Source: Bolinopsis microptera
Taxonomy: Eukaryota > Ctenophora > Tentaculata > Lobata > Bolinopsidae
Length of the DNA: 64,000 bases
Direction: 5' to 3'
NCBI RefSeq assembly: GCF_026151205.1
Contig: NC_087082.1
Coordinates: 14,975,365 to 15,039,364 of the forward strand
Numbering within the stretch: the first letter of the stretch is position 1; every line of letters begins with the position of its first letter. The notes under the pieces are model-generated. The model searched no databases. It was not told the DNA's origin and worked only from the letters and a program-made list of their open reading frames with translations. The translations under genes and the position numbers were made by a program. Positions 1-29,758 of this stretch are shown one piece after another.

Positions 1-625
1 TTTATCCAATCACCTTCATTTACGGACTCAGACAATTGAGTATTTATTTCTGGGTTTTCACGTTTTATTAGAACCGACTGCCACAATTGACGGTCCACAT
101 AGTCTTTACATCTTTTTCGAACTATAAACCGAAACGGTATGTTTGGCATTGAAATGTCTGCATGCTCCTCTAGGTAGTGCTTCCCCATGGCCGTAGATTT
201 GTTGCCATCCCTTACTGATTTGTAGTGTTCCCAGGCTCTACTTCTTTTAAACCTACCAGTTTCCCCAATGTAGGACTTATTACATATTTGGCATATTAAT
301 TGGTAGCAAATGTTTTTGATCATGCAGGATTTATCGCACTGGTAGCATTTGCTGTCACTTTGTTTATTGCATTTTGTTTGCTGCAGGCTAGATCTTGTTA
401 AAGCTTCCATGAGACGTTGACCTGATGTGAATGTTACCCTGGTGGAATCCAAGAGGTTTTGATTTCTTAGGGTATAGTAGACTTTTCGACACGTCTGTTC
501 ATTTATATAAGGTAATGATAAGTAAGCTATTTTTGAGTTCTTTTTAGGCGCATTTTGTTTATCCAGTGTATTCTGTGTTTCTCGAATAAGTTTCTTGACA
601 ATATTAGGAGGGAAACTATTCTTCT
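1..625 (-). mobile_element. Penelope-like element, 5'-truncated copy a (cut by window edge)
   Basis: This is the minus-strand half of a head-to-head pair of truncated PLE copies. It encodes the C-terminal part of a PLE polyprotein, including the GIY-YIG nuclease; the last few codons and the 3' UTR lie outside the window. It mirrors copy b (from 636) about an axis at 630.5 with a 10-bp spacer, and it is the equivalent of 2433-3057 in the second dimer at an offset of exactly 2,432 bp. The frame opens at an ATG at 630-632 in the spacer, which is fortuitous. The reverse transcriptase part of the element is missing. Confidence 0.85.
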
Positions 626-635
626 TTAGCATATC

Positions 636-1676
636 AGAAGAATAGTTTCCCTCCTAATATTGTCAAGAAACTTATTCGAGAAACACAGAATACACTGGAT
701 AAACAAAATGCGCCTAAAAAGAACTCAAAAATAGCTTACTTATCATTACCTTATATAAATGAACAGACGTGTCGAAAAGTCTACTATACCCTAAGAAATC
801 AAAACCTCTTGGATTCCACCAGGGTAACATTCACATCAGGTCAACGTCTCATGGAAGCTTTAACAAGATCTAGCCTGCAGCAAACAAAATGCAATAAACA
901 AAGTGACAGCAAATGCTACCAGTGCGATAAATCCTGCATGATCAAAAACATTTGCTACCAATTAATATGCCAAATATGTAATAAGTCCTACATTGGGGAA
1001 ACTGGTAGGTTTAAAAGAAGTAGAGCCTGGGAACACTACAAATCAGTAAGGGATGGCAACAAATCTACGGCCATGGGGAAGCACTACCTAGAGGAGCATG
1101 CAGACATTTCAATGCCAAACATACCGTTTCGGTTTATAGTTCGAAAAAGATGTAAAGACTATGTGGACCGTCAATTGTGGCAGTCGGTTCTAATAAAACG
1201 TGAAAACCCAGAAATAAATACTCAATTGTCTGAGTCCGTAAATGAAGGTGATTGGATAAAATATACTTGGAAGTTAATGTAATATTGAACTTATAAACCT
1301 AGATAATTTTTGATTAATCAGTTTTATGAAGGAGCTATCTTGGTAAAATGTTTGTAGTATTATGAAGAATTGTTCACGGCTTGTTGCGATTTGGATTCTT
1401 TTAGCCGTTATATTTTATGTTTCTTTTGGATAAATTTGTGATTGTTGTTGTGTTTCAAGATGTTATTTGTTGTTGTTATATTTCGTAGTATTAATAGATT
1501 ATTTTAATAGATTATTTTAACATTGTATCTTTGCAGCTATGTAAGTTTTCAGTACGTCCTGTTTATGACAAAGGCATGTAGCCGAAACGTCGACAAAGAA
1601 TTATGTTTTAACACACTGAGTGGAGACTCTCATTTCGTCAACTACAATTAAAAATTAAAAAAAAAAAAAAAAAAAA
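636..1676 (+). mobile_element. Penelope-like element, 5'-truncated copy b (GIY-YIG end plus 3' UTR and poly(A))
   Basis: The open frame runs from about 638 to the TAA at 1280-1282 and encodes the region between RT and nuclease followed by the GIY-YIG endonuclease. Visible motifs are a CYQC zinc knuckle, ICYQL (the GIY strand), SYIGETGR (the YIG strand), an Arg/His helix (RAWEHYKS) and KRENPEIN near the end, all characteristic of canonical PLEs with a C-terminal nuclease. The RT core is absent, so the copy is not autonomous. The 3' UTR (1283-1653) holds a hammerhead-like motif and ends in an A-rich tail at about 1650-1678. The 157 C-terminal residues are identical to those of copies c and d, so duplication was recent. 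Confidence 0.88.
1558..1594 (+). ncRNA. Hammerhead-ribozyme-like motif in PLE 3' UTR (degenerate)
   Basis: A GGC-ATGTA-GCC hairpin is followed directly by GAAAC and GTCGAC, the layout of hammerhead stem II, the GAAA core strand and a short stem III. The expected CUGAUGA strand appears only as CTGTTTATGA. PLEs are known to carry minimal hammerheads in their terminal regions. Here the core looks altered, so activity is doubtful. Confidence 0.35.
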
Positions 1677-1680
1677 AATT

Positions 1681-2035
1681 GAACATTGTCCTAAAAATGC
1701 TCAGAACGGTTTAAAATTGGTCGGAAAGTGTTTATATTGGTCCTGCGACCACTCAAACCAAGTTTGGGAATCACTGCATGTCTAGAACCGATGTGACCTA
1801 TGTTCCAAAATGTTCCAATTTTGGGACAATAATCCTCCTGAGAATCCAGATTTTTGGAACATGGGCACATCGAAGTATTGGCTGTATTTAAGTGCTGGGA
1901 AGCCTCAATTCGGTAAAAACTAGGCATAAGAGCCATCAAAACTGAAATAACATTACCCAGGTTCATGTAATGAACGAAAATGAACAAAATTGAACATTGG
2001 TAATCTTGTTTTGCTCTTATGAGTGGGTCAATCAT
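1681..2035 (-). repeat. 331-bp satellite monomer, minus orientation, between PLE dimers
   Basis: About one monomer of the satellite that forms the array at 4.87-8.16 kb, here in reverse orientation. It begins straight after the A-rich tail of PLE copy b and ends next to the 3' end of copy c, so the PLE dimers appear to sit inside reverse-oriented satellite. The part up to about 1918 is repeated at 4113-4350. Confidence 0.8.
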
Positions 2036-2038
2036 TTA

Positions 2039-3057
2039 TTTTTAATTGTAGTTGACGAAATGAGAGTCTCCACTCAGTATGTTAAAACATAATTCTTTGT
2101 CGACGTTTCGGCTACATGCCTTTGTCATAAACAGGACGTACTGAAAACTTACATAGCTGCAAAGATACAATGTTAAAATAATCTATTAAAATAATCTATT
2201 AATACTACGAAATATAACAACAACAAATAACATCTTGAAACACAACAACAATCACAAATTTATCCAAAAGAAACATAAAATATAACGGCTAAAAGAATCC
2301 AAATCGCAACAAGCCGTGAACAATTCTTCATAATACTACAAACATTTTACCAAGATAGCTCCTTCATAAAACTGATTAATCAAAAATTATCTAGGTTTAT
2401 AAGTTCAATATTACATTAACTTCCAAGTATATTTTATCCAATCACCTTCATTTACGGACTCAGACAATTGAGTATTTATTTCTGGGTTTTCACGTTTTAT
2501 TAGAACCGACTGCCACAATTGACGGTCCACATAGTCTTTACATCTTTTTCGAACTATAAACCGAAACGGTATGTTTGGCATTGAAATGTCTGCATGCTCC
2601 TCTAGGTAGTGCTTCCCCATGGCCGTAGATTTGTTGCCATCCCTTACTGATTTGTAGTGTTCCCAGGCTCTACTTCTTTTAAACCTACCAGTTTCCCCAA
2701 TGTAGGACTTATTACATATTTGGCATATTAATTGGTAGCAAATGTTTTTGATCATGCAGGATTTATCGCACTGGTAGCATTTGCTGTCACTTTGTTTATT
2801 GCATTTTGTTTGCTGCAGGCTAGATCTTGTTAAAGCTTCCATGAGACGTTGACCTGATGTGAATGTTACCCTGGTGGAATCCAAGAGGTTTTGATTTCTT
2901 AGGGTATAGTAGACTTTTCGACACGTCTGTTCATTTATATAAGGTAATGATAAGTAAGCTATTTTTGAGTTCTTTTTAGGCGCATTTTGTTTATCCAGTG
3001 TATTCTGTGTTTCTCGAATAAGTTTCTTGACAATATTAGGAGGGAAACTATTCTTCT
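2039..3057 (-). mobile_element. Penelope-like element, 5'-truncated copy c (C-terminal GIY-YIG, 217-codon frame)
   Basis: The frame at 2411-3064 gives the longest view of this family: residues 1-90 are the linker after the RT thumb (PPNIVKKLIRET, LPYINEQ), C96/C99/C103 form a zinc knuckle, ICYQL at 108-112 and SYIGETGR at 120-127 are the two GIY-YIG strands, RAWEHYKS lies near 132-139 and KRENPEIN at 180-187. The nuclease would nick target DNA to prime reverse transcription. The first Met lies in the 10-bp spacer shared with copy d and is not a natural start. The 3' UTR is at 2039-2410 and lacks the long A tail of copies b and d, passing instead into AAAATAAATG-type sequence. Confidence 0.87.
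2099..2136 (-). ncRNA. Hammerhead-ribozyme-like motif, PLE copy c
   Basis: Minus-strand counterpart of the motif at 1558-1594, in the same place relative to the PLE stop codon, with the same hairpin and GAAAC segment and the same departure from CUGAUGA. Confidence 0.33.
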
Positions 3058-3067
3058 TTAGCATATC

Positions 3068-4108
3068 AGAAGAATAGTTTCCCTCCTAATATTGTCAAGA
3101 AACTTATTCGAGAAACACAGAATACACTGGATAAACAAAATGCGCCTAAAAAGAACTCAAAAATAGCTTACTTATCATTACCTTATATAAATGAACAGAC
3201 GTGTCGAAAAGTCTACTATACCCTAAGAAATCAAAACCTCTTGGATTCCACCAGGGTAACATTCACATCAGGTCAACGTCTCATGGAAGCTTTAACAAGA
3301 TCTAGCCTGCAGCAAACAAAATGCAATAAACAAAGTGACAGCAAATGCTACCAGTGCGATAAATCCTGCATGATCAAAAACATTTGCTACCAATTAATAT
3401 GCCAAATATGTAATAAGTCCTACATTGGGGAAACTGGTAGGTTTAAAAGAAGTAGAGCCTGGGAACACTACAAATCAGTAAGGGATGGCAACAAATCTAC
3501 GGCCATGGGGAAGCACTACCTAGAGGAGCATGCAGACATTTCAATGCCAAACATACCGTTTCGGTTTATAGTTCGAAAAAGATGTAAAGACTATGTGGAC
3601 CGTCAATTGTGGCAGTCGGTTCTAATAAAACGTGAAAACCCAGAAATAAATACTCAATTGTCTGAGTCCGTAAATGAAGGTGATTGGATAAAATATACTT
3701 GGAAGTTAATGTAATATTGAACTTATAAACCTAGATAATTTTTGATTAATCAGTTTTATGAAGGAGCTATCTTGGTAAAATGTTTGTAGTATTATGAAGA
3801 ATTGTTCACGGCTTGTTGCGATTTGGATTCTTTTAGCCGTTATATTTTATGTTTCTTTTGGATAAATTTGTGATTGTTGTTGTGTTTCAAGATGTTATTT
3901 GTTGTTGTTATATTTCGTAGTATTAATAGATTATTTTAATAGATTATTTTAACATTGTATCTTTGCAGCTATGTAAGTTTTCAGTACGTCCTGTTTATGA
4001 CAAAGGCATGTAGCCGAAACGTCGACAAAGAATTATGTTTTAACACACTGAGTGGAGACTCTCATTTCGTCAACTACAATTAAAAATTAAAAAAAAAAAA
4101 AAAAAAAA
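3068..4108 (+). mobile_element. Penelope-like element, 5'-truncated copy d
   Basis: Plus-strand partner of copy c, mirrored about 3062.5. It is a 2,432-bp-offset duplicate of copy b; the frame from about 3070 to the stop at 3712-3714 encodes the same 157 C-terminal residues without any difference. It ends in an A-rich tail at about 4080-4110 that abuts reverse-oriented satellite. It carries the nuclease domain only, with no RT. Confidence 0.87.
3990..4026 (+). ncRNA. Hammerhead-ribozyme-like motif, PLE copy d
   Basis: Same motif 2,432 bp downstream of the one at 1558, inside the duplicated PLE dimer. The altered core is shared, so it predates the duplication. Confidence 0.33.
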
Positions 4109-4111
4109 AAT

Positions 4112-4680
4112 TGAACATTGTCCTAAAAATGCTCAGAACGGTTTAAAATTGGTCGGAAAGTGTTTATATTGGTCCTGCGACCACTCAAACCAAGTTTGGG
4201 AATCACTGCATGTCTAGAACCGATGTGACCTATGTTCCAAAATGTTCCAATTTTGGGACAATAATCCTCCTGAGAATCCAGATTTTTGGAACATGGGCAC
4301 ATCGAAGTATTGGCTGTATTTAAGTGCTGGGAAGCCTCAATTCGGTTTTCTAAGATGGATATAGGTAAAAACTAGGCCTAAGAGCCATCAAAACTCAAAT
4401 AACATTACCCAGGTTCATGGAATGAACGAAAATGAACAAAAATGAATATTGTCCTAAAAATGCTCAGAACGGTTTAAAATTGGTCGGAAAGTGTTTATAT
4501 TGGTCCTGCGACCACTCAAACCAAGTTTGGGAATCACTGCATGTCTAGAACCGATGTTACCTATGTTCCAAAATTTTCCAATATTGGGACAATAATCCTC
4601 CTGAGAATCCAGATTTTTGGAACATGGGCGCATCGAAGTATTGGCTGTATTTAAGTGCTGGGAAGCATTTATATCAAAAT
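4112..4680 (-). repeat. 331-bp satellite, minus orientation, about 1.7 monomers
   Basis: Reverse-oriented satellite directly after PLE copy d. The segments at 4113-4440 and 4441-4670 are successive monomers; the second breaks off near 4670. An unrelated AT-rich stretch (4671-4850) then separates it from the plus-oriented array, so this is the inversion boundary of the satellite block. Confidence 0.8.
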
Positions 4681-4849
4681 ATTGGAGGATTATTAAAACA
4701 AAAATATTTGCCCAATAAAATAATTTCTGTTTAATTGTACATAATTCTGAATGCAACTTTAAGACCCTGTTGGACGAAAATATTGACTCTTTGCCACCAT
4801 TTTTTAACCATTCTGAGTGCTTTGAGGAAAATTTTCATGTTCTTTGTTC

Positions 4850-7800
4850 ATTCCATAAACTTGGGTAATATTATTCGACTTTTGATGGCTCCTCTATAAG
4901 GCCTAGTTTTTTTATATCCATCTTAGAAAACCGAATTGAGGCTTCCCAGCACTTCGATGTCCCCATGTTCCAAAAATCTGGATGCTCAGGAGGATTATTG
5001 TGACAACATTGGTAACATCGGGTCTAGACATGAAGTGATTCCCAAACTTTCCGACCAATTTTAAACCGTTCTGAGCATTTTTAGGACAATATTCATTTTT
5101 TGTTCATTTTCGTTCATTCCATGAACCTGGATAATGTTATTTGAGTTTTGATGGCTCTTAGGCCTAGTTTTTACCTATATCCATCTTAGAAAACCGAATT
5201 GAGGCTTCCCAGCACTTAAATACAGCCAATACTTCGATGTGCCCATGTTCCAAAAATCTGGATTCTCAGGAGGATTATTGTCCCAAAATTGGAACATTTT
5301 GGAACATAGGTCACATCGGTTCTAGACATGCAGTGATTCCCAAACTTGGTTTAAGTGGTCATAGGACCAATATAAACACTTTCCGACCAATTTTAAACCG
5401 TTCTGAGCATTTTTAGGACAATATTCATTTTTGTTCATTTTCGTTCATTACATGAACCTGGGTAATGTTATTTGAGTTTTGATGGCTCTTAGGCCTAGTT
5501 TTTACCTATATCCATCCTAGAAAACCGAATTGAGGCTTCCCAGCACTTAAATACAGCCAATACTTCGATGTGCCCATGTTCCAAAAATCTGGATTCTCAG
5601 GAGGATTATTGTCCCAAAATTGGAACATTTTGGAACATAGGTCACATCGGTTCTAGACATGCAGTGATTCCCAAACTTGGTTTGAGTGGTCATAGGACCA
5701 ATATAAACACTTTCCGACCAATTTTAAACCGTTCTGAGCATTTTTAGGACAATATTCATTTTTGTTCATTTTCGTTCATTCCATGAACCTGGGTAATGTT
5801 ATTTGAGTTTTGATGGCTCTTAGGCCTAGTCGTTACCTACATCCATCTTAGAAAACCGAATTGAGGCTTCCCAGCACTTAAATACAGCCAATACTTCGAT
5901 GTGCCCATGTTCCAAAAATCTGGATTCTCAGGTGGATTATTGTCCCAAAATTGGAACATTTTGGAACATAGGTCACATCGGTTCTAGACATGCAGTGATT
6001 CCCAAACTTGGTTTGAGTGGTCATAGGACCAATATAAACACTTTCCGACCAATTTTAAACCGTTCTGAGCATTTTTAGGACAATATTCATTTTTGTTCAT
6101 TTTCGTTCATTACATGAACCTGGGTAATGTTATTTGAGTTTTGATGGCTCTAAGGCCTAGTTTTTACCTATATCCATCTTAGAAAACCGAATTGAGGCTT
6201 CCCAGCACTTAAATACAGCCAATACTTCGATGTGCCCATGTTCCAAAAATCTGGATTCTCAGGAGGATTATTGTCCCAAAATTGGAACATTTTGGAACAT
6301 AGGTAACATCGGTTCTAGACATGCAGTGATTCCCAAACTTGGTTTGAGTGGTCATAGGACCAATATAAACACTTTCCGACCAATTTTAAACCGTTCTGAG
6401 CATTTTTAGGACAATATTCATTTTTGTTCATTTTCGTTCATTCCATGAACCTGGGTAATGTTATTTGAGTTTTGATGGCTCTTAGGCCTAGTTTTTACCT
6501 ATATCCATCTTAGAAAACCGAATTGAGGCTTCCCAGCACTTAAATACAGCCAATACTTCGATGTGCCCATGTTCCAAAAATCTGGATTCTCAGGAGGATT
6601 ATTGTCCCAAAATTGGAACATTTTGGAACATAGGTCACATCGGTTCTAGACATGCAGTGATTCCCAAACTTGGTTTGAGTGGTCATAGGACCAATATAAA
6701 CACTTTCCGACCAATTTTAAACCGTTCTGAGCATTTTTAGGACAATATTCATTTTTGTTCATTTTCGTTCATTCCATGAACCTGGGTAATGTTATTTGAG
6801 TTTTGATGGCTCTTAGGCCTAGTCGTTACCTATATCCATCTTAGAAAACCGAATTGAGGCTTCCCAGCACTTAAATACAGCCAATACTTCGATGTGCCCA
6901 TGTTCCAAAAATCTGGATTCTCAGGAGGATTATTGTCCCAAAATTGGAACATTTTGGAACATAGGTCACATCGGTTCTAGACATGCAGTGATTCCCAAAC
7001 TTGGTTTGAGTGGTCATAGGACCAATATAAACACTTTCCGACCAATTTTAAACCGTTCTGAGCATTTTTAGGACAATATTCATTTTTGTTCATTTTCGTT
7101 CATTCCATGAACCTGGGTAATGTTATTTGAGTTTTGATGGCTCTTAGGCCTAGTCTTTACCTACATCCATCTTAGAAAACCGAATTGAGGCTTCCCAGCA
7201 CTTAAATACAGCCAATACTTCGATGTGCCCATGTTCCAAAAATCTGGATTCTCAGGAGGATTATTGTCCCAAAATTGGAACATTTTGGAACATAGGTCAC
7301 ATCGGTTCTAGACATGCAGTGATTCCCAAACTTGGTTTGAGTGGTCATAGGACCAATATAAACACTTTCCGACCAATTTTAAACCGTTCTGAGCATTTTT
7401 AGGACAATATTCATTTTTGTTCATTTTCGTTCATTACATGAACCTGGGTAATGTTATTTGAGTTTTGATGGCTCTTAGGCCTAGTTTTTACCTATATCCA
7501 TCTTAGAAAACCGAATTGAGGCTTCCCAGCACTTAAATACAGCCAATACTTCGATGTGCCCATGTTCCAAAAATCTGGATTCTCAGGAGGATTATTGTCC
7601 CAAAATTGGAACATTTTGGAACATAGGTAACATCCGGTTCTAGACATGCAGTGATTCCCAAACTTGGTTTGAGTGGTCATAGGACCAATATAAACACTTT
7701 CCGACCAATTTTAAACCGTTCTGAGCATTTTTAGGACAATATTCATTTTTGTTCATTTTCGTTCATTCCATGAACCTGGGTAATGTTAGTTGAGTTTTGA

Positions 7801-8165
7801 TGGCTCTTAGGCCTAGTTTTTACCTATATCCATCTTAGAAAACCGAATTGAGGCTTCCCAGCACTTAAATACAGCCAATACTTCGATGTGCCCATGTTCC
7901 AAAAATCTGGATTCTCAGGAGGATTATTGTCCCAAAATTGGAACATTTTGGAACATAGGTCACATCGGTTCTAGACATGCAGTGATTCCCAAACTTGGTT
8001 TGAGTGGTCATAGGACCAATATAAACACTTTCCGACCAATTTTAAACCGTTCTGAGCATTTTTAGGACAATATTCATTTTTGTTCATTTTCGTTCATTCC
8101 ATGAACCTGGGTAATGTTATTTGAGTTTTGATGGCTCTTAGGCCTAGTTTTTACCTATATCCATC
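4850..8165 (+). repeat. Satellite array, 331-bp monomer, about 10 units
   Basis: A fixed point in the monomer (GAATTGAGGCTTCCCAGCAC) falls at 5196, 5527, 5858, 6189, 6520, 6851, 7182, 7513 and 7845: eight steps of 331 or 332 bp. A more diverged first unit starts near 4850-4934. Units differ at only a few positions (for example CGTTACC versus TTTTACC near the TAGGCCTAG box), so the array is homogenised. The monomer contains an internal near-repeat of TTGGAACA and GTTCATT-type words. The small reading frames here are by-products of the repeat. Confidence 0.95.
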
Positions 8166-10813: not shown

Positions 10814-12259
10814 ATTCATATGCATATTTCATGTCTAATAAGCCATTGATTGCTAAATACCGAGGAATCAATGTTTCTTGGTTGTTAAATTCAGAACTAC
10901 ATGTTCTAAAAATAATTAATCATAACGCTACAAATAATTAATCATAACATATTCCGGATAGGAACATTTTTCTTTTTGAAAATATTGTGTGAACTGCAAT
11001 AGCGAAGAGTGCAGTTCATGGGTTTCAAGTTTTGTCGAGATGGCTATGTGGCCATAGCCCATAATCCTATCATTATTATTATAATTAGTATTTCAGCCCA
11101 AGGTTACATTTAATTCAGAAATTTTGTTATTAAGCATTACACAATATGTCGGTGGATGTCGGTGACTACGATAATCTTATCTATAACGAAGGCTTAAACA
11201 GAAATGCCCCAAGTTCCAGTTCACTGCAACAACCATGGGAGGGCTAAATTACCAGGGAGACAAGAAGTTAGTAAAAGTGATATTCTCACTACTGAGAAGT
11301 TATTAAAATAAAACGTACCGTGCTCTCTGTCTACCATAGTACTGTGTATAGTGTGTGTACTACCTCCGTTGAACTTTTGCTTTATTAACTGGCACCAACT
11401 CACTGACAGAAGAAATGATATTAACTGCGATATAGTGAGTTTATTGTTTATTGACCAATAAAATTATTGACCAATAAAATAAATCTAATAAGTTCAGCGT
11501 ATTAATTGTGCATCAATTAAACCAACAACATACTATTCTATTTGTTGAGGTTATAATATTATATTGAACATCAGTCAATTTGAATAAACACAGCTCTACT
11601 TACAACAGGTTTTTTGGACAATTGCAATTATAGCGACAACAATAAGCCGCCGATCAGGGAAACAGGCCCTCCTCACGAACTCTCTGCTGTGCTGGCGCAA
11701 CAAGCGATACTGGTGGGGTGGTCAGAAGATGTGATGGCCCGTCAAGTCTTGGCGAAACTCAGCAGAGGTCACATATAGGATAGAAAACAATGTTACCCAA
11801 GAACTTCTTGGTCCAACCTATTGAACTTATATAGAAGAGTAGAAATAGGTAAGTTCACGGTTATCACGCAATCTGCGGTTTCCCGTTTCCGAGAAATGTC
11901 TTGAAGCTTGCCAAAGTCTTTTGATATTGTCACTATTGTCAATTTAGGGGAGAAAATTCCAAGTCTTCCAGCTTTCACTGGAAATGAGTAGCCGTAGGCA
12001 TGGAGCGTGCAGAAGCTGATTTTTTTTGTGAGAGAAGAGAGTATTACTTTAACTCTCAGTCTGGCATTCTCTCTGAACTGTACATCGATCATCTATAGGT
12101 AATTTGGACATATCCCTGGAGAACTTTCCACAGATGTATGATGGAGTCTAGCCTTCTCAGCATCTTAGCAGCCAGCAGGGATATAAGTTTCAGTTCCTTC
12201 GGTCTATTCCAATAGTCGGTGTTTTTGAGCCCTAGAATCTGTCTACAATTAACTGGCGT
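10814..12259. other. Gene-free AT-rich stretch
   Basis: No recognised gene. It contains a short direct repeat (ATTGACCAATAAAAT at about 11452-11480) and AT-rich unique sequence. Small minus-strand frames at 11793-12277 show no family resemblance that I can name. Confidence 0.6.
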
Positions 12260-14095
12260 TGTATGCTCTAAGAACAAGAAGCCTCAAGCATCTTGTGTCC
12301 GGGACAAGGACGGTAGGAAGATCACGGATCCCCAACAGCAGAGGGATAGGTGGAAGGAGCACTTTACTGAACTTCTGAACCCTCCATTATCAAGTGTCGA
12401 CCTTGCCGACCTTGACACAGTACCACCCCAACCCCACTTTAACTCTCTCTCTTGTTCGGATGGACCACCTACCAGAGACGAGATTAGTTATTCCCTGACA
12501 AAGCTTAAGAACAACAAAAGCCCAGGAGTGGACGGGATAACTAACGAGCAACTGAAGTATGGTGCGAGTGCTCTAGTTGATCAACTAGAGTGTCTATTCA
12601 AGAAAGTGTGGGAAGAAGAGACTGTTCCTGAAGATTGGTTAAAGGGTGTGATCATTGTTATTGGGAAGAAAGGAGACACTTCAGTCTGCGGGAACAACAG
12701 AGGGATCACCTTAAGGTCTACAGCATCCAAGCTTTTTCAGATGATTCTTCTTAAGCGGTTACATGCTGGTATGGAGTGTCTCCTTAGGGAGAATCAGTGC
12801 GGATTTAGACAGAACCGCTCATGTATTGATCAGATTTATTCTCTCCGAACTATTATTCATAACTGTCTTGAGTTTAACATTCCTCTTTACATTAATTTTG
12901 TGGATTTCAAGGCAGCGTTCGATTCTATCAGAAGGGACTTTATTTGGTGCAGTATGAGACACTATGGGCTGCCTGAAAAATATGTCAGAATATTTCAGTT
13001 ATTTTTTGGGGGTACCATGAGTGCCGTGAGGGTTAATGGGGAGCTGACAGAATGGTTTGATGTTAACTCAGGCACAGGTCAGGGTGACATTCAAGCACCT
13101 CCTGTCTTTAATTTCTGCCTAAACTTTTCTGCATTTCTGGCTGAGACCAACAAGATCATCAGTCAAGGCGCAGTGCTGCAGAAAGAGATGAAGACGGTCG
13201 AGGAAAAGGTCATTCTGGACACCGATTATGCTGATGACATGGCTATTATGGACAACTCAGGGGAAGGCCTACAGGAATCAACTGATCTATTAGTTCATTA
13301 CAGCTCCTACGCTGGGCTCAGAATAAATGCAAAGAAGACCCAATGCATGGCTGTAAGCAAGTGCGCCTCCCAGCGACCTTTCATCAAGGATGATTGTATT
13401 GAGCTGTCGGTTGAGGGTGAACCCGTCGAGCAGGTTAGCAACTTTGTCTACCTGGGTGCAACTATCAGTGGGGATGGGACAATCAACAGAGACCTGGATG
13501 TCCGTATCCAGAAGGCTAATGGCGCCTTTCATCAGCTCTAGAACATTTGGAATAGCAGAACTATAAAGACTCCAACCAAGATCAGGATCTATAGGGCTGC
13601 TGTCCTCACCATCTTGTTGTATGGAGCTGAAGTCTGGAACACCACCAAAAAGCAGATGAAACGCTTCGAGGTTTTCCATCAAACCTCTTTGAGAAGGATC
13701 CTTAGGATTAAATGGTTCTTTCATGTGACCAACGACGAAGTTCTTAGGAGGGCCGGCATCAAGTCGGTTGAGACTTTCATCAGTGCTGCCAGGCTACGTT
13801 GGTATGGACATGTAGTTAGAATGCCAGACTCTAGACTACCGAGGTTTCTGTTGAACTGGAAGCCAAATTATGGAAAGAGGTCAAGGGGCAGACCCCGTAA
13901 GAACTGGAAGTCCTGCGTACTCGAAGATGCTGCTAAGTTTACAGGTGTTGAAAACATCGACAACGACACAACAGAAGCTTTGGCTACCAACCGAGTACAG
14001 TGGAGACATATGTTACGCCGCCAACGCGATGTGTGTGATGCAGGCCACTCCAACGACTAGGAGGAGACCTTACCATGTAACATGTATGTATGTAT
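12260..14095 (+). mobile_element. RTE-like LINE, 5'-truncated, reverse transcriptase with one in-frame stop
   Basis: One frame (12219-14060) encodes the polymerase part of a non-LTR retrotransposon. It contains the pre-RT box (WKEHFTELLN), SPGVDGITNEQLK, the NNRGITL box, CGFRQNRSCIDQI, FVDFKAAFDSI (palm, first catalytic Asp), TGQGD, and DYADDMAI with the catalytic YADD near residue 330. After the palm, RTE-type tail motifs appear: RLRWYGHVVRM and RGRPRKNW. A single TAG at 13539-13541 splits the frame; everything downstream (13542-14060) remains in phase, so decay is slight. The apurinic endonuclease domain is missing, which indicates 5' truncation near 12.26 kb. The 3' end is a short (ATGT)n run at 14078-14093, usual for RTE-like elements. 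Confidence 0.85.
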
Positions 14096-15258
14096 GCTCT
14101 CGACTGACTGGATATTATAGATATTTTTTGGATTCCAGAGCAGCAGTACTCCACTCGCTGGATCTTAATACCATGGATTTGTAGAGCTGGAGCATTATAG
14201 GTTTTGTCCTGTCTTTGAATAGTCCAAGAACCCAAGGTGTATAGTGTGTGATGCCAGTCATAAATGGCAGCTCCTAGAAAAGTTACACTGGTTAATACTC
14301 AGGTTTGTGAGAGAACAAGATAAAATTAGATGACCAATTTCTGTCAGTGTAAATATTGTCGAACATGAGCGGGCTTTACAATCATTTGAGGGGAAAGAGC
14401 CCTGAAGATCAGCTATCTAAAAGTAACTTGGCTCTAAAGTCTAAATTATATTGCAGCGATATAAAAAGTCGCTGTATCATAGAAAATCTTGCTTTTTCAG
14501 AACTACTAGAAAGTTTGGGACTATAATTGGGAGCAAAGTAAAGTCTAAATGTACAATTGTAGCTGCTGTAGTGATGTGCTGCATCAAATCAAATATTAAA
14601 GATCAAAACGTACACACAACGAGAGCGTGTATATAACGACAGTATACATGCCAATTATGAAACGATCTGTTTGATCATAACACGTGTGCGCGCGCAATTC
14701 TGGAATAATCCATTAAGAGATGAACTGTAGATCAGTGTAACTTTACACTGTAATGTGTATTATATAGCGTGTACATCAATCATCAATGTATTAGTGCTTT
14801 TCATGCAACAAGTAAAACAAATCCTTTATGTCATGTTTCCAGGGTTTGGACTGGAATTGCCTGCTTAAAGAACCTCCATCGCATTACATTACATAATTTT
14901 CTGAAACATATATTACATTTACAATAAATTATGCAATATCACAACATTACAATCAACAAAATAAATTTAATCGCAGAATCTCAAATGCAAATAATCGTAA
15001 ATTAAACACAAAAAACAAACAACAAAAAACAAACAACAAATTAAACATGCAATAAATGAATATACGAATGCGCATCTTTTGTCAACTTACTCCTTCATAA
15101 AATTAATTTTTGACAAAAAATTTTTTAGACGGTAAAATAATGGTTACTAATTTATAAGTCACAAGTAATAAATCAATACAAATTAATCACAAATACTAGA
15201 ATAATTAATAGATATTAGGTAACTTATATAACTGAAAAACGATATATGTCGATACAAA
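14096..15258. other. Gene-free AT-rich stretch downstream of the permuted PLE
   Basis: No gene seen. Up to about 14.9 kb it is unique sequence. The part near 15.0-15.25 kb is very AT-rich with ACAAACAACAAA-type runs and probably includes the 3' UTR of the minus-strand PLE that ends at 15259. I could not locate that element's exact 3' terminus. Confidence 0.5.
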
Positions 15259-17940
15259 TTACAAAATAATATTAGGTGATTGAAACATTTCAATAAATTC
15301 ATCATAAATATCACTACCATATTTACCCCAAATATTTAATCTTGATTTATAAAACTTGACAAACTTGTTACGCAAAGCAGCTAACTTAAATCCTTGCGCA
15401 ACCAATTTACCTAAAAGTTCGGTAACACAATTTTTGAAACCCTTAAGTGTCGAATTAATTCTGGCTAATCGTACTAATTGAGAAATAAATATTCCATAAG
15501 ACAAATTATTTGGAACGTTTCCATCCAAAAAAGGATAAGATATAACTTTAAAATTATAATCTTTTCTTTTATCATATAACGTCACTCTAAACTTTCCTTG
15601 ATAAATACTAATGTTTAAGTCTAGATAGCAACATTTACGAGCCGAAATATTAGTATTATTTACTATCATTTCTTTAGGATAAATATCTTCTAATACATTC
15701 TGTAATAAATTGAAATCATTAAAAACTATCAAATCATCTTGATAACGAAATGTGTCTTTTAATCTTTTTAGATTTTCTGTATCCCCTTGTTCTATCAAAA
15801 GTTTAATATATTTATATTCGTAAACATGTAAATAAACATTAGCTATTTGTGGTGCTGCATTGGTACCCATTGGTATTCCAATAACTTGTCTATAAATTTG
15901 ACCCTGATAAGTAACATAAGAATTATCGATCAAATAATTAAGACATTCCAAAAGTGTATCTTTAGAAAAATGAACTTTATTTTTACTAACATTATCAGAG
16001 AAATAGGCCTTCTTAGTATAAAGATTAGGAATAATATAAGACTTATCTTTAAAATCAAATACTCTTTCTACAAACATACGAAGATTATCCTTCAATTGAA
16101 TATGAGGAATAGATGTATATAAAGTTGAAAAATCATAAGTACTGACAGACTTTAAACCTTTCTGGGTATTATCATAACTAAGAAAATCTAAGATAGGCTC
16201 ATTATTATCAATAACAAAATAATCATTTCTAACGTGAAATTTATTATCATATATAGATTTATTTTTAGCTGAGTGAAGCATAGATTTAATACAAATGCTA
16301 AGATAGACTGATAATTGTTGTAAACTACTTCCACTACCAGACGTTATATATCTAACTCCGACTGGCTTTTTATGCTGTTTTGGTGTAATATATAAATAAG
16401 GTAATTTGCTATTATCTTCATCAAATTTAATACGATGTTTAAGTAAGAATGCTTTATGCTCATTAATTATATCATCTTCTGAACGATTAACTTTAGTAAA
16501 TGTATTCGATGATAATTCCTTTTCAATCATACTAATATAGAACTTTTTACAAACAATAGTAATATTATTTTTGGCTTTATCGGTAGGAACCAATACAAAA
16601 TCTTTATGAAGCTCATCTAAATCTGCTAAGACTTCAACATCTGATAATACTGAATAATAGGGATATGGTTTAGCTCCTTGCAGTTGAATTTTCACTTGCT
16701 CTATGATTAGTGTTTTCCACTCTTGAAACTCTTCTATAGGTTTATGCCATAAATTAGACAATTTATCGCAATAGCTTTTGAGTGCCGTCTTTACTGATTT
16801 TAAAGCTTTTTCAGTACATGGTTTAGCTTGGTCTCTATAATTTAATCCCTTCATTAGGAGATTACGAAGTTTATCATTACTGATCATTGATAGCTCTCCT
16901 GTAATGACATGTTTATGAGTAGGGTCTGTATAACGACTTGATGCACAATTACATTTCAATGTTTCTGAGTCAATGTTAGCTTCATTATATACTTTTTTGT
17001 AGTTAAGTACTTTAGATCTGATTGTTGGAGGGTATTTGTAGGACAATGTAGGTTGCTGATGATACTTTGACTTGAATGGTGCAGCTTTAGTAACTTGTTC
17101 CATTTTAAATATCTTTCGAAAATCAATATACTCGACAAATTTATTAACATAATTAACTACAATAAAAGAATTTGATTTACTATTATTCTTACACGCTAAA
17201 CCCATTCTTGTAAGGTAAAACCATGATAAATCTTTAACTAAGAGAATTTTATGAAATCTATATGTCGTTATACTACTATTAAAATTATTAATATAAGATA
17301 TAGCTTTAATATATACTAACTTAAGTTGTTTCTTTTTAAGATTACATAGATTAGTACGAATATCATGCATATCAATCATATTATCATCATCCAGCAAATC
17401 TTCATAAAATACATCGATATCAAATTCTTGTCTTTCACTTACTATATTACTAATAAATCTACCTCCACGTGAATGTCTATTTATTTTAACTATATCGAAC
17501 TGACTATAAATCGTTGTTTTAGAGTTCATCACAATATTGCAGGCATCTAGTATGTTCTTCTTTTTAACACGAACGTTGAGACCATATGGGAAAACTGTAT
17601 TTAACTGCAACATACAAGCTTCTTCAATGTCTTCTCTTTCTTTCAATGTAGTATTATTAGGTAAGAGTTTAATCGGCATGATAGCCATGTTTTCAGTGCT
17701 ATGAATTTTAGTGAAGTGATCACGAAGTATTTTGCAGCCTCCACCACGTTTTATAGTAGATTTATGTTGGCTTATTCTAGAAGCAATTGAATTGATAGTG
17801 TGCCCAATGTATTGATATTTACAATCTTTATGCAAGCATTTTATCAAGTAGATGCAATTCTTCGTTTGACATGATCCATTAAAGTCGTATGCTATTTCTG
17901 ACGACCTGTGGTCCTTTGTATAATAAGGGGTCATCCACAT
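15259..17940 (-). mobile_element. Permuted Penelope-like element (Naiad/Chlamys-type): N-terminal GIY-YIG plus reverse transcriptase, 893 codons, uninterrupted
   Basis: Retroelement polyprotein with nuclease and polymerase in one frame. Residues 28-122 form a GIY-YIG nuclease: CIYLIKC (29-35) is the GIY strand, YQYIG (42-46) the YIG strand, ASRISQHK follows, and a Cys/His set (C35, C40, H75, H80) resembles the CCHH feature of this clade. Residues 330-350 hold CNC followed by HVITGEL. The RT spans about 450-830: DKAKNN (454-459), PKQHKKPVGVR (520-530), TYDFSTLYTSIPH with a catalytic Asp (601-613), IGIPMGTNAAP (687-697) and RYQDDLIVF with the catalytic DD (732-740). Canonical PLEs, such as those at 0-4.1 kb, have the nuclease at the C-terminus. 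I chose the Met at 17940 because a TGA closes the frame four codons upstream. There are no stops or frameshifts, so the copy may be young. Flanking ends were not identified. Confidence 0.92.
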
Positions 17941-26818: not shown

Positions 26819-28201
26819 TTAATATATTTTGAGATTTTCATCAGGGCTGTCCACTTGTGCATAGTCACCATTCTCTGCTACCTTCGTCTTTGTTTTCGTC
26901 GATGACATGACCTTGATACAAAAAGCAATACATAGCATTGATTCTGCGATGTAAATCAATCCCAGAATGCCTGTAGACCAGCCAAAAGATGCGAATGGTG
27001 CGATCAGTCCGGATGTTGTGGTGCCGATGAAGATACCAATAGGAAATGCAGCACAGTACAAGGAAACCAGTGAGTTGATGACGATGATGGGCAGCTTGCC
27101 TCCATTCCTCGCTTGGTAAACCTTGAACATGACTGGTAGAGCGGAGACGCACGCCATTGGAACAGCTAATCCTAGCAATGCAAGTGAGAGGATGACTTGA
27201 GTTTTGGAGGGAGTGATGAAGGAGAGTAGCGGGAGAGGACCCACAAAGGCGTACACCAAGGGTAAACTCACACAGGAGGCCATCAACATCTTACAAGGAC
27301 CGTACCTGTCTATCGCCAGCCCGATGATTGGTGAGAAAATGCAGATACCCCCCGTAGTGGCAAGAAGAGCGGTCCCAGACCAGACGACGTCCGCGTTGAA
27401 GAATTCTTCCGCGTAGGGAGAAAGAAGAGGCATGGGATAGCTGACGAGGATGAGAGCAGATGCAAGATGCCACAGTGGGAATAGAACCAGAGGATCCAAG
27501 ATACTGGTCCAGCTTGATTCTTCTTCACCAGCTCGTCTCTTCTTGCTGTTAAGACTAGAAAGGAAGAAAGCCGGGATAGCACTTACAAATATTAGTGCAC
27601 CTGGAAAGACAGAAGCTGCTGTGAAACCGCCTGCATCGTACAGGACTCCCCCCAAAAAGGGCCCTAAAGCACATGCTCCGTTAATAAAGGCCTCCCCAAT
27701 TGCTGTGACAGTGCCAACATACTCGGGGTAGATGGCTAAGTAAGCGGCAAATATGGTGACGTTGAGAGTACCACCAAATGCTCCGGCTGAAAATCGGAAT
27801 ATCAAAGACAGAATCTGGTAAATCACCAAATTCTCGATGGAATCCAGCACGCTAAAGAGTAATAGGGAGATACCAAGGCCAGCTAAGCCCCCCGAAAGGA
27901 CAATTCTGGTTGAAAACTTGGACATGACGACAGGAGCGATCACTCCACACGACACCGCCATTCCTGAAGAAGTTGATCCAAGTATCAGTCCGGTCCAGAA
28001 GGTTGAGATCTCTCTGCTCTCATTGTAGAGCGGGAGGTAAGAGTAGGGCATATGGAACGAGACGAAGGTTAGGAGGTGGAAGAGGCACATGGCAAGGAAG
28101 AGGAACCTTTTTTTAGTCGGGGAAAAGGAAGTTATGTCCCATTTAGCAGCGGGAATTTCGGCAGATGTTTCAAGTTTGTCAGCATTCTTTGATTCCGTCA
28201 T
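26819..28201 (-). CDS. Major facilitator superfamily transporter, SLC18B1-like, single exon
   Basis: 460-residue membrane transporter with about twelve hydrophobic segments in two halves split by a charged loop (residues about 208-222, KKRRAGEEESS). Residues 169-185 read GEAFINGACALGPFLGG, the antiporter-type motif C (G-x3-GP-x2-GG) of the drug:H+ antiporter and vesicular amine transporter branch, followed by LYDAGGF. The second half carries a motif A form, GLAIDRYGPCKML (284-296). The whole fits animal SLC18B1-like proteins (vesicular polyamine transporters are the studied members); the substrate here is unknown. The start Met at 28201 gives a short cytoplasmic N-terminus rich in polar residues before TM1 (about 32-55). 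The frame is uninterrupted, with no introns, which could mean a retrocopy or naturally single-exon paralogue. The C-terminal tail is hydrophilic. The 5' flank is partly duplicated at 29.9-30.6 kb. Confidence 0.9.
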   Translation of the reverse strand: MTESKNADKLETSAEIPAAKWDITSFSPTKKRFLFLAMCLFHLLTFVSFHMPYSYLPLYNESREISTFWTGLILGSTSSGMAVSCGVIAPVVMSKFSTRIVLSGGLAGLGISLLLFSVLDSIENLVIYQILSLIFRFSAGAFGGTLNVTIFAAYLAIYPEYVGTVTAIGEAFINGACALGPFLGGVLYDAGGFTAASVFPGALIFVSAIPAFFLSSLNSKKRRAGEEESSWTSILDPLVLFPLWHLASALILVSYPMPLLSPYAEEFFNADVVWSGTALLATTGGICIFSPIIGLAIDRYGPCKMLMASCVSLPLVYAFVGPLPLLSFITPSKTQVILSLALLGLAVPMACVSALPVMFKVYQARNGGKLPIIVINSLVSLYCAAFPIGIFIGTTTSGLIAPFASFGWSTGILGLIYIAESMLCIAFCIKVMSSTKTKTKVAENGDYAQVDSPDENLKIY

Positions 28202-29284: not shown

Positions 29285-29758
29285 CAGGGGACAGGGGACA
29301 GGGGACAGGGGACAGGAGACAGGGGACAGGGGACAGGGGACAGGGGACAGGGGACAGGGGACAGGGGACAGGGGACAGGGGACAGGGGACAGGGGACAGG
29401 GGACAGGGGACAGGGGACAGGGGACAGGGGACAGGGGACAGGGGACAGGGGACAGGGGACAGGGGACAGGGGACAGGGGACAGGGGACAGGGGACAGGGG
29501 ACAGGGGACAGGGGACAGGGGACAGGGGACAGGGGACAGGGGACAGGGGACAGGGGACAGGGGACAGGGGACAGGGGACAGGGGACAGGGGACAGGGGAC
29601 AGGGGACAGGGGACAGGGGACAGGGGACAGGGGACAGGGGACAGGGGACAGGGGACAGGGGACAGGGGACAGGGGACAGGGGACAGGGGACAGGGCACAG
29701 GGCACAGGGCACAGGGCACAGGGGACAGGGGACAGGGCACAGGGCACAGGGGACAGGG
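29285..29758 (+). repeat. (GGGGACA)n minisatellite, about 67 copies
   Basis: A pure 7-bp tandem repeat with one early variant (GGAGACA) and a cluster of GGGCACA variants in the last 60 bp. The plus strand has a G4 run every seven bases and could form G-quadruplexes. Because 7 is not divisible by 3, several frames stay open on both strands; these are artefacts of the repeat. Confidence 0.97.

Follow-up and report, generated by a model that had tools for sequence, protein, structure and literature searches.

A twister type-P5-like fold in the pseudo-LTRs of Naiad-type Penelope-like elements of the ctenophore Bolinopsis microptera

Introduction

Among Penelope-like elements (PLEs), the Naiads are reportedly organised with an N-terminal GIY-YIG endonuclease, a CxC linker and a C-terminal reverse transcriptase (RT), and are said to carry pseudo-LTRs and to occur as tandem and partial copies. 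An insertion-in-fingers domain in the RT and a bias for microsatellite targets are reportedly further marks of the group. PLEs with such N-terminal nucleases are also said to lack canonical hammerhead motifs, and the presence of both PLE architectures, nuclease before RT and nuclease after RT, in one genome has reportedly been described before.

Canonical PLEs, in which the nuclease is C-terminal, carry dimeric minimal hammerhead ribozymes (Cervera & de la Pena 2014 and Lunse et al. 2017, both through the excerpted text of PMC7761336), and pairing of two hammerhead copies is described in the same excerpts. These also mention, as 'in preparation', truncated twister ribozymes at the 5' ends of RTE retrotransposons (PMC7761336). 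The pseudoknots T1 and T2 of known twisters arise from pairing of loop L4 with L1 and L2, and stem P1 is dispensable for cleavage, according to the excerpted review PMC6154101.

Here we describe a PLE in a 64,000-nucleotide stretch of the Bolinopsis microptera genome (NC_087082.1, positions 14,975,365 to 15,039,364, forward strand; hereafter the window). The element resembles the Naiad clade (Craig et al. 2021) in its order of nuclease, CxC motif and RT, in the pseudo-LTRs and the tandem and partial copies of its relatives, and in that no hammerhead was found. It differs in having a twister-type fold in the pseudo-LTR, a feature that the description of the clade (Craig et al. 2021) is not known to mention.

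Results

Domain order of the 893-codon frame

The minus strand of window positions 15259-17940 contains an uninterrupted 893-codon open reading frame, as the first-pass annotation had claimed for this interval; the plus strand there is full of stops. Pfam reports a GIY-YIG endonuclease domain at residues 28-82 (window 17695-17859, minus strand; PF01541, E 1.6e-6, above its cut-off). A CxC motif (CNC, residues 330-332; 16945-16953, minus strand) lies between nuclease and RT, and both of its cysteines, C330 and C332, are invariant in an alignment of N-terminal-nuclease PLE proteins comprising five rows from four families. The RT occupies about residues 450-830 (15451-16593, minus strand) and includes the motifs DKAKNN (residues 454-459; 16564-16581, minus strand) and RYQDD (residues 732-736; 15733-15747, minus strand), which were read directly from the translation. 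Because Pfam RVT_1 reports nothing in the 893-codon protein, the RT call rests on these two motifs and on homology. The annotated order of nuclease then RT stands for the nuclease by Pfam and for the RT by its motifs and homology. A search of the whole genome with the RVT_1 profile, which listed at least 150 matches from about 6,500 candidates, was uninformative on PLEs, and a PDB sequence search was empty. Judged by its motifs, the frame has the Naiad layout of GIY-YIG nuclease, CxC linker and Penelope-type RT.

The window has other features. About 1.2 kb from the 3' end of the Naiad-type element lies a 440-codon LINE-like frame with an RVT_1-family RT (E 1.5e-26; 12219-13541, plus strand). 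An uninterrupted 460-codon frame for an MFS transporter (PF07690, E 3.1e-24) is found at 26819-28201 on the minus strand, and at 29285-29758 the 7-bp unit CAGGGGA is repeated about 68 times.

Copies, ends and truncation

The first-pass annotation had proposed a search of the genome for further copies in order to fix the ends of the element, and such a search (264,652,675 bases in 232 contigs) found many, fixing the shared 3' end and exposing a 5' truncation of the window copy. There are at least 52 protein matches to the frame in this genome (51 of 1,157 candidates scored), at least nine of which, the window copy counted, are 98-100% identical and near full length (two of the nine have one in-frame stop); the frame is therefore not a chance product. 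At least 40 matches came from a DNA search that used 500 bases of the 3' end as query (40 of 487 candidates scored), so that both copy counts are lower bounds.

Seventeen loci of the window family were read. Their 3' end is common to within a few bases and their 5' truncation points vary, in keeping with target-primed reverse transcription. The upstream extent of the window copy is exceeded in nine of the 17 (L009-L016 and L019). Seven copies were compared with it, and DNA homology to every one of them ends at window 17886, so residues 1-18 of the frame (18 codons, 17887-17940) are flanking host DNA and the element itself spans 14789-17886 on the minus strand, with its 3' end at 14789 and its truncation at 17886. 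Window residue 19 aligns with residue 57 of the L009 frame, and untruncated copies have 56 different residues, a Cys-rich CDRKSCVTC stretch among them, in place of window residues 1-18. The final 560 bases or so of a full copy also occur upstream of its frame, forming pseudo-LTRs (3245-3802 and 6561-7117 in L009). The window copy has the 3' repeat only, without the Cys-rich N-terminus and the 5' pseudo-LTR, and the earlier description of it as apparently intact must be given up. It is 99.5% identical to L005 over 3,099 bases; these comparisons make it a recent copy that is truncated, not intact. The flanks of the window copy share no stretch of 7 nt or more and so give no sign of a target-site duplication. 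Tandem-repeat DNA borders three (L018, L026 and L027) of the 17 window-family copies whose flanks were read. No relatives in other species were found among the viral contigs or genome contigs searched.

Families with an N-terminal nuclease

Protein comparison distinguished four families in which the nuclease precedes the RT: the window's family and those of L022, L030 and L029, which are 62%, 33-34% and 30-31% identical to the window protein, respectively. The Pfam GIY-YIG domain is reported in the window and L009 proteins and falls below its cut-off in L029; in L022 and L030 Pfam reports none and the nuclease is visible by alignment alone. A fifth group, represented by 401 bases of one 3' region (L056), is 45-54% identical to L029 over parts without the nuclease. 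Pseudo-LTRs and tandem arrangements are present in other copies of these Naiad-type elements, including head-to-tail arrays of the L029 family on C5 and C6 with units about 3,350 bases apart. The arrays comprise three units on C5 and four on C6, 99-100% alike in protein, and two L029-family copies that were read (L029 1-7501 = C5:23560000-23567500) have the RT motif RLIDD, not RYxDD.

In an RT-only maximum-likelihood tree of nine rows from this genome (four N-terminal-nuclease PLEs, four C-terminal-nuclease PLEs and one TERT), the two kinds of PLE separate with support of 95/99 and 100/99, with TERT on a long branch. Domain order, the CxC linker, the pseudo-LTRs of full copies and this own-genome tree support assignment of the element to the Naiad-type, N-terminal-nuclease PLEs, and with it the first-pass reading to that effect. 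The first-pass annotation had also named a reading that would undo it, in which nuclease and RT belong to two adjacent independent elements. This reading is excluded for practical purposes, with a probability close to nil, because a single frame encodes first the nuclease and then the RT, both in the nine near-full-length window-family copies and in near-full-length copies of the three families at lower identity.

A twister-like fold near the 3' end

About 45 nt near the 3' end of the element, repeated in both pseudo-LTRs of full copies, fit a type-P5 twister ribozyme. In the window copy the core lies in the 3' pseudo-LTR at 14839-14883 on the minus strand and consists, in order, of P2, the G-motif GATGG, the P1 segment, TAA, P2' and P4 with an 8-nt loop; it matches both Rfam RF02684 (30.1 bits, under the cut-off) and the descriptor introduced below. 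Cleavage is predicted between U at 14867 and A at 14866 (minus strand). The proposed arms of P5 were read from the sequence (5' arm TTATGT, 14891-14896; 3' arm ACATAA, 14826-14831; both minus strand), and a rival 10-bp pairing competes with them. In L009 one twister-like fold, in the 5' repeat, precedes the start codon by about 120 nt, and a second is near the 3' end of the element.

By eye, the 3' ends of four families have in common the order P5, P2, Gnnnn, P1, UAA, P2', two T1 bases, P4 and P5'. The P4 loop in these families has eight bases, UnnnnAnn: positions 2-4 pair with positions 3-5 of the G-motif, and positions 7-8 with the two bases that follow P2'. The base numbering of the Naiad fold presumably fits that of Osa-1-4, and we take the first G of the G-motif to be the catalytic G of twister. 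All five families have this active-site G and the cleavable UA step in their matches, both being demanded by the descriptor.

Rfam scores for the fold are low. A scan against all of Rfam that covered L009, L015, L029, L030 and L036 (39,451 bases) gave sub-threshold Twister-P5 matches at a shared position in the two pseudo-LTRs of L009 and likewise in those of L015 (26.8-28 bits against a cut-off of 37.6; E 0.054-0.11); the rows with better E values were miRNA families, far under their own cut-offs and outside the mapped elements. The 30.1 bits of the window core are likewise under 37.6 (E 2.7e-4, for a 701-base stretch chosen after the five-locus scan), and RF02684 does not report L022, L030, L029 or L056. 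A genome search with RF02684 gave at least 45 matches, none of the 45 over the cut-off and the best at 34.3 bits (80 of 5,887 candidates scored). Of the two top-scoring matches, one is a truncated window-family copy of which the last 101 bases align, and eight of the 45 fall in places found by the 3'-end DNA search; the window's own match is absent from those listed. The Rfam match could be taken for chance, as its P1 loop would be of 2 nt, but the pattern across families speaks against that view.

A second repeat family (L054 63-120 and L055 78-126) has a Twister-P5-like core of the same layout, with E values of 0.016 and 0.0043. Both fail the twister descriptor, L054 by one T2 pair, and their P1 segments contain perfect 8-nt palindromes. 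Eight more of the listed RF02684 matches share the score and length of L054.

Descriptor test and a held-out family

After comparing the four families we wrote a twister descriptor that includes both pseudoknots and leaves P5 optional, and with it scanned both strands of the window, L009-L030 and L040-L052 (L001-L008 and L031-L039 were left out). It gave 38 matches in 569,068 bases, all at Naiad pseudo-LTRs or 3' ends and none elsewhere: 19 in the window's family, five in that of L022, eight in that of L030 and six in that of L029. Since most of these bases had been chosen for holding Naiads, random sequence is the wider control, and here the rate was 1.1 matches per Mb (189 in 170.4 Mb from an order-1 model of 270,921 bases). 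The descriptor itself requires the G, UAA and T1/T2 pairing, so that their presence in the first four families is partly by construction. Because pairing of own strands, G and UAA were all conditions of the descriptor, the fair tests are this null rate and a held-out family, for which L056 is the sole case. Before its sequence was seen we predicted that the fifth group would match the descriptor 150-600 bases downstream of its frame. The 401 bases of L056 contain one match. It lies on the sense strand, about 285 bases downstream of where the frame should end, and its T2 pairing, TAG/CTA, is absent from the other families; the chance of a held-out match is about 4e-4.

These results bear on the view that the window holds an ordinary Naiad copy and that the twister fold is a chance match through a flexible descriptor composed after the fact. 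The tuning on four families and the silence of Rfam on four of the five speak for it, but given the low null rate, the lack of any off-target match in 569,068 bases and the agreement of the fifth family with a prior prediction, we hold it to be very improbable.

Pairing, covariation and substitution

P2, T2 and T1 are fully paired in each of the five families (40/40 pairs), and only one of 120 strand permutations reaches 40/40. When strands were swapped among the five families, full pairing persisted in 0/20 combinations for P2, 3/20 for T2, 12/20 for T1 and 3/20 for P4, against 5/5 each for own strands. Pairs were counted on structure-based rows, a MAFFT alignment of the cores having misaligned the families. 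Within the window family P2 shifts from UGC/GCA to CGU/GCG and CGC/GCG (U-A to C-G). By these counts, stems P2 and P4 and the T1 and T2 pseudoknots covary. A subfamily of four loci (L014, L015, L016 and L028) has a U·U that breaks one P2 pair, and it fails the descriptor.

Between L043 and L045, substitutions number 0/61 in the fold and 30/215 in the flanks (p 6.7e-4), and two pairs from the L029 family have 0/86 in the fold against 13/216 and 11/203 in the flanks (p 0.02 and 0.04). Over all eight comparisons, a lower substitution rate in the fold is significant in one, marginal in two and not significant in five.

The P1 segment

In three families, leaving L029 and L056 apart, a closed P1 stem is lacking, the segment being 8-9 nt and without room for a stem and a loop. 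Four of the five families, all but the window's own, have in P1 a perfect palindrome of 6 nt; with a chance per segment of 0.06-0.29, it is only suggestive. Pairing between two copies may occur through it.

Canonical PLEs and hammerheads in the same genome

Window 1-4090, about 11 kb from the Naiad-type element, holds four fragments from the 3' end of a canonical PLE (C-terminal GIY-YIG), arranged as two head-to-head inverted pairs; these are context and no part of that element. Each has 217-224 codons and no RT core. Their nuclease was identified from its motif and from homology to longer relatives at other loci, in which the RT comes before the nuclease; Pfam reported no family in the single fragment scanned. 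The longer canonical PLEs, in which the nuclease follows the RT, are L036, L040, L041 and L042 (nuclease by motif; below the Pfam cut-off in L041). The first-pass annotation had seen both architectures displayed side by side at this locus. They do coexist in the genome, while the neighbour at 0-4.1 kb, consisting of 3'-end fragments, exhibits the nuclease end only. A 331-bp satellite DNA lies beside and between the fragments; its array at 5046-8165 (within window 1-8165) adjoins the inverted blocks, which are two near-identical units 2,432 bases apart with inverted arms of up to 1,023 bases.

A genome search with the hammerhead model RF00163 gave at least 74 matches, 67 of those listed being over the cut-off (74 of 35,380 candidates scored). 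One above the Rfam cut-off, at C4:11003307-11003353, lies about 190 nt upstream of the frame (start 11003545) of L041, a C-terminal-nuclease PLE, and by eye is the only one of the 74 listed within 4 kb of a known canonical PLE place. No hammerhead was reported in the sequences of L035, L036, L037, L038 or L040-L042, loci that contain little non-coding DNA. By eye, none of the 74 listed is within 5 kb of a known Naiad place. Hammerheads were also sought in the Naiads directly, with none in the window at Rfam cut-offs and none in L009, L015, L029 or L030 at E values up to 5. Elsewhere, tandem hammerheads over the Rfam cut-off and about 277-278 bases apart occur at C1:2501259-2502413 and C6:1742030-1743465, resembling retrozyme or satellite arrays.

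Discussion

We consider it likely that the window holds a recent, 5'-truncated copy of a Naiad-type PLE whose pseudo-LTR contains a twister type-P5 fold, and that this fold would self-cleave. The fit of the fold, its place and its covariation come from the sequences. Transcripts through the repeats would be cut at the U|A step (window 14867/14866, minus strand), and cleavage would trim pseudo-LTR RNA in the part that carries the hammerhead in canonical PLEs. Six full copies have 5' ends that cluster within about 17 bases, away from the predicted cut, so cleavage would not set the ends of the element. Because three families have no usable P1 loop and four of five have a palindrome in P1, cleavage may, speculatively, need two ribozymes acting together.

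The fold might instead serve to bind protein or to start reverse transcription, as a structured RNA that resembles a twister and does not cut. It sits near the 3' end, where reverse transcription begins, and its Rfam scores are all under the cut-off among the matches listed. In one canonical PLE, moreover, reverse transcription starts in a stem-loop and insertion in vitro had no need of hammerhead cleavage (PMC11167929, excerpted text). Every family, however, has a match that keeps the G, UAA and both pseudoknots while the pairing bases vary, which a binding hairpin would not require, and we regard a non-cutting RNA as unlikely.

A self-cleaving twister would agree with type P5 (RF02684) in the order P2, G-motif, P1, UAA, P2', T1 strand and P4 with an 8-nt loop and in the T1 and T2 pseudoknots. 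Unlike that type, it has no proper P1 hairpin loop in three families and scores under the Rfam cut-off, and its pseudoknots show compensated changes at bases that known twisters strongly conserve. It is like the dimeric hammerheads of canonical PLEs, as these appear in the excerpted sources, in that the pseudo-LTR houses a ribozyme motif, one of whose stems is too short to close alone, and unlike them in ribozyme class. With the truncated twisters of RTE elements (PMC7761336) it shares the reduction of a twister within a retroelement, whereas the class of retroelement and the position differ. We found no report of a twister in a PLE pseudo-LTR in the literature searched, a body that misses many subscription papers and all preprints; PMC7761336 and PMC10085705, in their excerpted parts, report no twister-type fold at this place. 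The twister fold seems to be the new part, the truncated Naiad-type element itself being of a known kind.

The contrast between hammerhead and twister draws on one canonical copy in this genome and on the literature (PMC7761336 and PMC11167929, as excerpted). We put forward tentatively, at somewhat less than even chances, that Naiads replaced the hammerhead with a twister in the same region and that both act as dimers through a short palindromic stem, P1 in the twister and stem III in the hammerhead. If the fold is a twister, this suggests that self-cleavage is a shared need of PLEs met by unrelated ribozymes, and not a matter of one particular cutter; one genome would then offer two independent cases for what a PLE ribozyme does. 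If, further, a twister has taken the place of the hammerhead and both are dimeric, the PLE life cycle would need a paired self-cutter in the pseudo-LTR, of whatever class.
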